A DNA stretch of 64,000 nt from Tepidiforma flava. Lineage in GTDB: Bacteria; Chloroflexota; Dehalococcoidia; Tepidiformales; Tepidiformaceae. Both the position numbers and the translations under genes were made by a program. The stretch is from assembly GCF_027594505.1 (NCBI RefSeq), contig NZ_CP115149.1, positions 558,001 through 622,000 on the forward strand, in the 5' to 3' direction. Under the pieces are notes generated by a model. It did no database searches. It saw only the letters and a list, made by a program, of their open reading frames with translations, and was not told the DNA's origin. Below are positions 6,492 to 7,690 of this stretch, in pieces; within the stretch, counting starts at the first letter, position 1, and every line of letters begins with the position of its first letter.

Positions 6492-7690
6492 TCAGGCGAG
6501 GATTTTGGTGACGACGCCGGCGCCGACGGTGCGGCCGCCTTCGCGGATGGCGAAGCGGAGGCCGTCTTCGATGGCGACGGGCTGGATGAGTTCGACGGTC
6601 ATGGTGATGTTGTCGCCGGGCATGACCATCTCGACGCCCTCGGGCAGCTGGATGGCGCCGGTGACGTCGGTGGTGCGGACGTAGAACTGGGGCCGGTAGC
6701 CGTTGAAGAACGGCGTGTGCCGGCCGCCTTCCTCCTTGGAGAGGACGTAAACCTGGGCTTCGAACTTCGTGTGCGGCTTGATGCTGCCCGGCTTGGCGAG
6801 CACCTGCCCGCGCTCCACGTCATCCCGCTCGATGCCGCGCAGGAGGCAGCCGACGTTGTCGCCCGCCTGGCCCTCCTCCAGCAGCTTCTTGAACATCTCG
6901 ACGCCCGTGACGGTCGTCTTCCGCGTCTCCCGCAGGCCGACGATTTCGACTTCATCGCCGACCTTCACGACGCCGCGCTCGATCCGGCCCGTCACCACCG
7001 TGCCGCGCCCCTTGATGCCGAACACGTCTTCGATCGGCATCAGGAACGGCTTGTCCAGCGGCCGCACCGGCGTCGGGATGTAGTTGTCGACCGCGTCCAT
7101 CAGCTCCCAGATGCACTTGTACTCGGGCGCGTTCGGGTCGGTCGACGTCGACTCCAGCGCCTTGAGCGCCGAGCCGCGGATGATCGGCACTTCATCGCCC
7201 GGGAAGCCCTGCGAGCTCAGCAGCTCGCGCAGCTCCAGCTCCACCAGCTCGAGCAGCTCCGGGTCCTCCATCATGTCCACCTTGTTCAGGAAGACCACCA
7301 GCGCCGGCACTTCCACCTGCCGCGCCAGGAGCACGTGCTCCCGCGTCTGCGGCATCGGCCCTTCCGGCGCGGCCACCACGAGGATCGCCCCGTCCATCTG
7401 GGCCGCCCCGTGATCATGTTCTTGATGTAGTCCGCATGCCCCGGGCAGTCCACGTGCGCGTAGTGGCGCTTGTCGGTCTCGTACTCCACGTGCGCAATCG
7501 CAATCGTGATGCCGCGCGCCCGCTCCTCCGGCGCGTTGTCGATCGAATCGAACGGCCGGTATTCCGCTTCGCCCTTCAGCGCCAGCACCTTCGTAATCGC
7601 CGCCGTCAACGACGTCTTCCCGTGGTCCACATGCCCAATCGTCCCAACGTTGACGTGCGGTTTCGTCCTCTCAAACTTCGCCTTCGCCAT
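6492..7690 (-). pseudogene. tuf: Elongation factor Tu gene with a one-base deletion (frameshift)
   Basis: The two halves together cover a full EF-Tu. Residues from [20 protein letters not shown] have the P-loop GHVDHGKT (19-26) and DCPGH and run to YIKNMITG. A second frame then continues [20 protein letters not shown] through NKVDMM to the end of domain 3 (VVTKILA). The break is at a run of four C (7406-7409, plus strand). A fifth C would restore the usual NMITGAAQMDG and a 399-residue protein. EF-Tu delivers aminoacyl-tRNA and is essential, so either an intact second copy exists or this is a sequencing or assembly error. Codon use from the start to about 6790 is G-ending, unlike fusA and rpsJ on either side. 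Confidence 0.95.

Follow-up and report, generated by a model that had tools for sequence, protein, structure and literature searches.

A codon reversal inside the duplicated tuf gene of Tepidiforma flava and the association of G-ending tuf genes with copy number in Chloroflexota

The tuf gene of Tepidiforma flava raises the question of how a single reading frame can run against the composition of its neighbourhood over most of its length and then rejoin it. The gene, which encodes EF-Tu, occupies 6492-7690 on the minus strand (1199 nt; identified from open reading frames, comparison with a second copy and a PF03143 match) of the window, meaning here the whole stretch of 64,000 nucleotides analysed (contig NZ_CP115149.1, positions 558,001 to 622,000). 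It is the str-operon copy, set on the minus strand between fusA upstream (7739-9814, minus strand), a uniformly C-ending reference, and rpsJ downstream (6154-6462, minus strand), a further C-ending reference. A sequence-only reading of the window attributed the aberrant part to recent copying from a second tuf gene, with a chimeric assembly as the alternative. Concerted evolution of tuf genes is textbook gene conversion and is usually treated as sequence-neutral.

The reversal and the two copies that carry it

Codon use was summarized as skew, (G-C)/(G+C) at fourfold sites. Skew lies between -0.32 and -0.72 in the 14 other minus-strand genes measured (107-10777), bearing out the earlier description of the minus-strand neighbours as C-ending. 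The accompanying claim that tuf reverses the local skew and then returns to it also holds: over eight 50-codon bins, the gene reads +0.84, +0.52, +0.69, +0.41, +0.14, -0.07, -0.38 and -1.00. This profile and the models below were computed on the intact second copy, not on the window copy, in which a GGGGG run near 7405-7409 is missing one G (minus strand; four Gs, against five in the second copy, by comparison of the two). The shortfall breaks the frame of the window copy, where the second copy reads on. The missing G, overlooked in the sequence-only reading, is probably a consensus error, or else a real frameshift. Over codons 83-399, the two copies agree save for the cut bin and one small change.

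Step models, with codon use learned from sampled leading- and lagging-strand genes of the T. flava genome, give log-likelihoods along tuf of -137.9 for constant use, -119.6 for a linear change, -106.9 for one step and -103.3 for two steps. The best single switch falls at codon 297 (window ~6799) and beats constant use by 31 log units. Placing two steps at codons 235 and 335 gains 3.6 log units over one step, so the inner border is a slope, blurred over codons ~235-335. Two sharp borders had been described; the one at the start codon is indeed sharp, whereas the inner one is this slope, centred near codon 297 (~6799, against 6790 as first placed). Skew and codon-model likelihood together delimit a G-ending body of codons 1-297 (6800-7690, minus strand), with the codon use of leading-strand genes and an even stronger bias at its 5' end, and a C-ending 3' block of codons ~298-399 (6492-6799, minus strand). 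The codon switch inside tuf is genuine and of long standing, and both copies have it.

Both ends of the gene lie outside the range that replication strand would give. In most codon boxes of this genome, leading genes have a G fraction of ~0.7 and lagging genes one of 0.2, and a strand effect alone accounts for neither extreme: the first tuf bin has 0.92 G against a leading-strand expectation of 0.70, and the last has 0.00 against a lagging expectation of 0.19. A strand effect alone fails in two other genomes as well, G222 and G017. A general end-of-gene effect was rejected as the cause of the tuf tail, leading genes of this genome dropping only from ~0.71 to 0.67 G in their last 12 codons. When the 315 genes called in the sampled genome are ranked by internal codon reversal, second and third place go to tuf, as a 301-aa piece in the window and as the whole gene at the second locus. 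The top-ranked gene, apparently uvrB by its motif (L146 9847-12066; C1:1189847-1192066), sits in a zone where the genome skew changes sign, and several of its neighbours also reverse.

The genome assembly is a single contig of 2,767,986 bases and contains two tuf genes. The second, at C1:2210512-2211711 on the minus strand, has tRNA-Thr, tRNA-Tyr and tRNA-Thr upstream and nusG downstream. Aligned to each other, as the sequence-only reading had proposed, the copies match at 1200 of 1204 positions over exactly the ORF, from CC-ATG to TGA-GG and no further, the differences being two substitutions, one N and a one-base gap. Because this near-identity covers exactly the ORF, gene conversion between the two copies is effectively certain. 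The hallmarks of concerted evolution are thus present, with one tuf in the str and one in the nusG context and identity confined to coding sequence. Likeness within the genome exceeds that between species, the T. flava pair showing 4 differences against 33 to the str copy of a congener, G002 (N included).

That the second tuf would lie on the other replication strand was correctly anticipated, for it is found in the opposite compositional arm. In sampled stretches, minus-strand gene skew is -0.40 to -0.65 around the window copy (tuf1) and +0.09 to +0.38 around the second copy (tuf2). The window-containing arm runs from 2.56 Mb via the contig start to 1.06 Mb, with minus-strand skew of -0.37 to -0.65 in ten stretches; in the other arm it is +0.37 to +0.57 at 1.46-2.2 Mb and weaker near tuf2. 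Skew changes sign at ~1.2 Mb and ~2.3-2.4 Mb (G000:C1). The best DnaA match, at 766 kb, lies away from both, so dnaA is no marker of the skew switch.

Relatives, gene borders and the frozen tail

The same tuf profile is found in both copies of three congeners (G003, G004 and G005) and in the str copy of G002. The reversal therefore dates back at least to the origin of the genus. Fourfold differences over codons 1-297 between the T. flava tuf and those of G003, G004 and G005 amount to ~17-23%, and to 10% for the G002 str copy. The direction of substitution within the genus gave no clear signal at small counts (in the body six G>C and three C>G, in the 3' part four C>G). The nusG-locus tuf of G002, the sister species, is G-ending almost to its end. 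This gene (L041 7675-8881) encodes a divergent EF-Tu, about 91% identical in amino acids; it has eight one-base insertions and one deletion relative to the T. flava tuf2 and does not match its own str copy, unlike the pairs in G003-G005.

The combination of a G-ending body and a C block from codon ~300 occurs in none of the 12 other family genomes compared. In G012 and G078, codons 300-350 are C-ending, but so is most of the gene, and the tuf of G055 has a weaker 5'-to-3' slope. Transfer of the G-ending block from other phyla was considered and rejected, since shared synonymous codons are no more numerous than composition predicts. The largest z for excess codon sharing outside the genus is 2.8, to a family member, and a block-wise family comparison yielded, over many cells, scattered z values no higher than 3.1 outside the genus.

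Several tuf loci are unusual in structure or in local composition. At L042 (G006), L053 (G025) and L294 (G238), fusA and nusG adjoin one and the same tuf, in the first two with fusA upstream and nusG downstream, as if arms had been exchanged by recombination between tuf copies. In the tuf of L231 (G082; 7397-8256), ~290 extra bases interrupt domain 3, with frame changes, representing either an insertion or a misassembly. Codons 50-100 form a strongly C-ending block in the otherwise mixed tuf genes of G232 and G147 (-0.88 and -1.00), and a dip at these codons is also seen in several other tufs of Chloroflexota.

At the 5' border, the 40-base leaders before ATG hold 188 G and 162 C when 17 loci are pooled, with G above C in 11 of the 17; the two tuf leaders of T. 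flava hold 22 G and 31 C. Against these near-even pooled leaders, third positions of the G222 tuf count 255 G and 25 C. The G excess in the leaders stems partly from ribosome-binding sites.

At the 3' border, synonymous change all but ceases. Across the genus, variation affects 62 of 170 fourfold sites in codons 1-330, compared with 4 of 41 over codons 330-399 (p = 6e-4). After codon 350, a single site in 29 varies among five species, delimiting a synonymously frozen tail of codons ~350-399 (6492-6641, minus strand). For reference, in 125 overlapping 69-codon windows of fusA the variable fraction averages 0.31, with none under 0.15. Most family members compared share nearly identical DNA over the last ~18 tuf codons. 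The RNA fold of the tuf 3' region is not significantly more stable than that of shuffled sequences (z -1.27; 23 of 200 shuffles at least as stable).

Replication strand, copy number and the wider distribution

Other genomes show that replication strand is neither necessary nor sufficient for such a gene. In G017, of the same family, strand skew is weak (251 genes, 95% point +0.23, largest +0.58), yet in seven of the eight bins both tuf copies lie at about +0.64 to +1.0. In G222, flank skew is small on both strands; the fourfold sites of the tuf body count 167 G, 0 C, 0 A and 4 T, against 286 G and 314 C in flanking marker genes, and two-fold Y codons show the same departure (C25 T63 in the tuf body, C215 T49 in the flanking marker genes). 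These 171 fourfold codons without a single C are the most extreme C depletion found. Strong G bodies at weak skew in G017 and G222 indicate that opposite strands are not needed. In G076, the two loci lie in contexts of -0.48 and +0.23, yet there is no tuf slope, so opposite strands are not sufficient either.

Copy number was compared in Chloroflexota with body skew and with tuf-minus-flank skew, the phylum being assigned through the named relatives L064, L093 and L097. Body skew is -0.36 to +0.11 in the 25 genomes with one detected tuf, except for +0.45 and +0.69, and -0.48 to +1.00 in 29 two-copy genomes, G050 of another phylum included (p = 6e-4 against the 25). Family means, with G238 and G123 counted as one-copy, give p = 0.005. 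G238 and G123 are the two exceptions in body skew. On the contig that carries rpsJ, G238 has 17 EF-Tu residues at the very end, and G123 starts with a tuf 3' end matching that of its assembled tuf, so both genomes have a second copy. G238 and G123 were moved to the two-copy group after their skew was seen, and G050 was left out. After this regrouping, tuf exceeds its flanks by at least +0.25 in 19 of 30 two-copy genomes against 0 of 23 single-copy genomes (Fisher 8e-7), flank skew being estimated differently in the two groups. Without the move, an excess of at least 0.25 is seen in 17 of 28 and 2 of 25. Family means after regrouping (16 vs 13) give p = 3e-4, families serving as a rough control for ancestry. 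Two-copy families that are not clearly G-ending are f41, f43, f53 and f69, and several tufs of the phylum are blocky, with borders elsewhere than in Tepidiforma.

The other canonical locus was inspected in the single-copy genomes, and in 22 of 23 at least 1.39 kb upstream of its marker gene is present without tuf; two weak matches there (26-33% identity) were taken for other GTPases. G134 is the sole single-copy genome in which that locus is cut by a contig end. Seven genomes of the family (G008, G009, G010, G013, G015, G080 and G090) and two of the class (G020 and G023) stand in neither group. G090 and G015 are G-ending with one tuf match each, and in both the contig edge beside nusG holds tuf 3' sequence. 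G020 and G023 have a single tuf site, and G008 and G080 have one tuf match each, their copy number being undecided. A strongly G-ending tuf goes with duplication in Chloroflexota, none being seen among the single-copy genomes tested; the link is strong in this one phylum and unproven elsewhere.

In a sample of mixed phyla, copy number and skew are not detectably related (25 two-copy vs 18 one-copy, p = 0.42); its one-copy group includes one named Dehalococcoidia record, L064. Four one-copy drafts in this sample are G-ending (L062, L090, L104 and L082). In the L062 genome, other sequence, with no tuf, lies just before rpsJ, and the L090 genome lacks a tuf anywhere within 1.5 kb of its nusG; on the evidence of their contigs, both are exceptions to the link. 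The copy number of L104 is undecided, and the L082 genome has no nusG match.

Of 79 diverse tuf genes from mixed phyla, 28 were left out for low fourfold GC; many of the 51 GC-rich ones are G-ending in surroundings that are not. Ten duplicate short loci were dropped from the codon-sharing comparison and from the one that follows. In 24 G-ending tufs outside the genus (17 named mixed-phylum records and 7 relatives), with amino acid and gene controlled for, preference stays between -0.2 and +0.7 logit to codon 375 and then falls to -2.3 in the last 25 codons. Tepidiforma departs from this set through a C block that starts near codon 300.

Explanations for the codon regime

The explanation favoured here, held tentatively, is that a pair of tuf ORFs kept identical by conversion has its own codon regime, with duplication and conversion as its cause; we infer that conversion, rather than another correlate of two copies, is what acts. 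The tuf reading frame would be one half of a pair homogenised by gene conversion, and its regime, a G-ending body and a C-ending 3' end, would be largely confined to the ORF, the sole stretch common to both loci. A strand-asymmetric process tied to conversion would push third positions of the coding strand from C and A to G and T, while the last part of the gene would be spared and stay at ambient or constrained composition. In T. flava, the opposite replication-strand contexts of the two loci would probably strengthen both ends, leading-like at the 5' end and lagging-like at the 3' end. A candidate reason for the drift to G/T is favoured pairing by RecA, which is reported to prefer TGG-rich, Chi-like single strands (PMC3763553), so that a G/T-rich coding strand would be the favoured pairing strand. 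The connection between this preference and the G/T-rich tuf is proposed here. It is more doubtful that this extends to a general rule, in which duplication drives the shared tuf ORF to a G/T-rich, C-free state with its 3' end spared, a single-copy tuf stays with local composition, and the window mosaic is one case bent by opposite strands.

Known systems resemble this one in part. Concerted tuf evolution has been reported in six phyla, Chloroflexi among those named (PMC6053082). The tufA/tufB pairs described there and in Salmonella likewise consist of two near-identical genes (str; tRNA-tuf-secE-nusG) with homology ending at the ORF (PMC6053082, PMC5485169). The available portions of these accounts differ from the present case in assuming uniform initiation and in carrying no gene-specific codon regime, 5'-to-3' reversal or link to copy number (PMC6053082, PMC5485169). 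In Salmonella, tuf conversion was modelled with initiation uniform along the gene, which gives no reason for a spared 3' end (PMC5485169). Neither a codon reversal within tuf nor a link between tuf codons and copy number was found in the titles and abstracts of the papers that literature searches listed, which is not proof of absence.

For Tepidiforma itself, the best rival is an ancient mosaic, rather unlikely on present evidence, in which a G-ending tuf2 on the leading strand and a C-ending tuf1 on the lagging strand were combined by two-way conversion before the genus diversified, and the product spread to both loci. A variant has the mosaic maintained continuously, with replication entering the two copies from opposite ends. 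As in ordinary replication-strand skew, the T. flava genome is strongly asymmetric, with one tuf copy in each arm. In favour, too, are the good fit of the step model, the absence of the combination of body and C block from the 12 other family genomes, the weaker slope of G055 and the G002 nusG-locus copy, which is G-ending almost to its end. Ordinary strand skew differs, however, in that tuf exceeds both strand expectations and that weak-skew relatives have similar or even stronger G bodies, and G076 has the opposite contexts without the slope. For the last two reasons, a fork-polarity model (5' end leading-like, 3' end lagging-like) was rejected as a sufficient account and kept as a modifier and rival.

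Selection on the tuf message or its codons is possible but, again, unlikely. It would act through tRNA choice, or through low C set against structure or Rho loading, together with a separate 3' constraint, and copy number would be a correlate. The drop in bias at the ATG fits such selection, as does the frozen tail (4 of 41 against 62 of 170 variable fourfold sites), and so does the recurrence of the pattern in other phyla without shared codons, including in two drafts whose other canonical locus lacks a tuf. The neighbouring ribosomal and fusA genes are not G-ending like tuf, however, no single-copy Chloroflexota genome (0 of 23) exceeds its flanks by 0.25, and the 3' RNA fold is unremarkable.

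Transcription-associated mutation, with C lost from the non-template strand of a highly transcribed tuf, is very unlikely. It would explain third positions that are rich in G/T and poor in C/A, as in G222, and the leaders with G above C at 11 of 17 loci, though ribosome-binding Gs are included in these. The pooled leaders (and the C-richer leaders of T. flava itself) fall far short of the G222 third positions, the effect fades before the stop codon, and single-copy Chloroflexota tufs lack it.

The recent, un-equilibrated conversion tract of the sequence-only reading, ending at 6790, is refuted by the partner copy. It had drawn strength from a nearly identical second tuf in the other arm, but a recent single tract would leave a border absent from the partner copy, and both copies are reversed. 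The same profile in four congeners, across fourfold differences of ~17-23% in three and 10% in one, makes the block at least genus-old rather than still equilibrating. A chimera of two tuf copies in the window, for which single Ns in the tuf2 region and the one-base gap in tuf1 might speak, is excluded, as the same mosaic recurs at both loci in separately assembled congener genomes.

If duplication predicts a gene-specific, strand-asymmetric codon regime, as the favoured explanation holds, bacterial gene conversion leaves a directional trace that can be read from sequence. Such a trace would be usable to test how conversion proceeds along a gene, and tuf would distort estimates of expression or growth rate that are based on codon use. 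The frozen C-ending tail merits a functional explanation.
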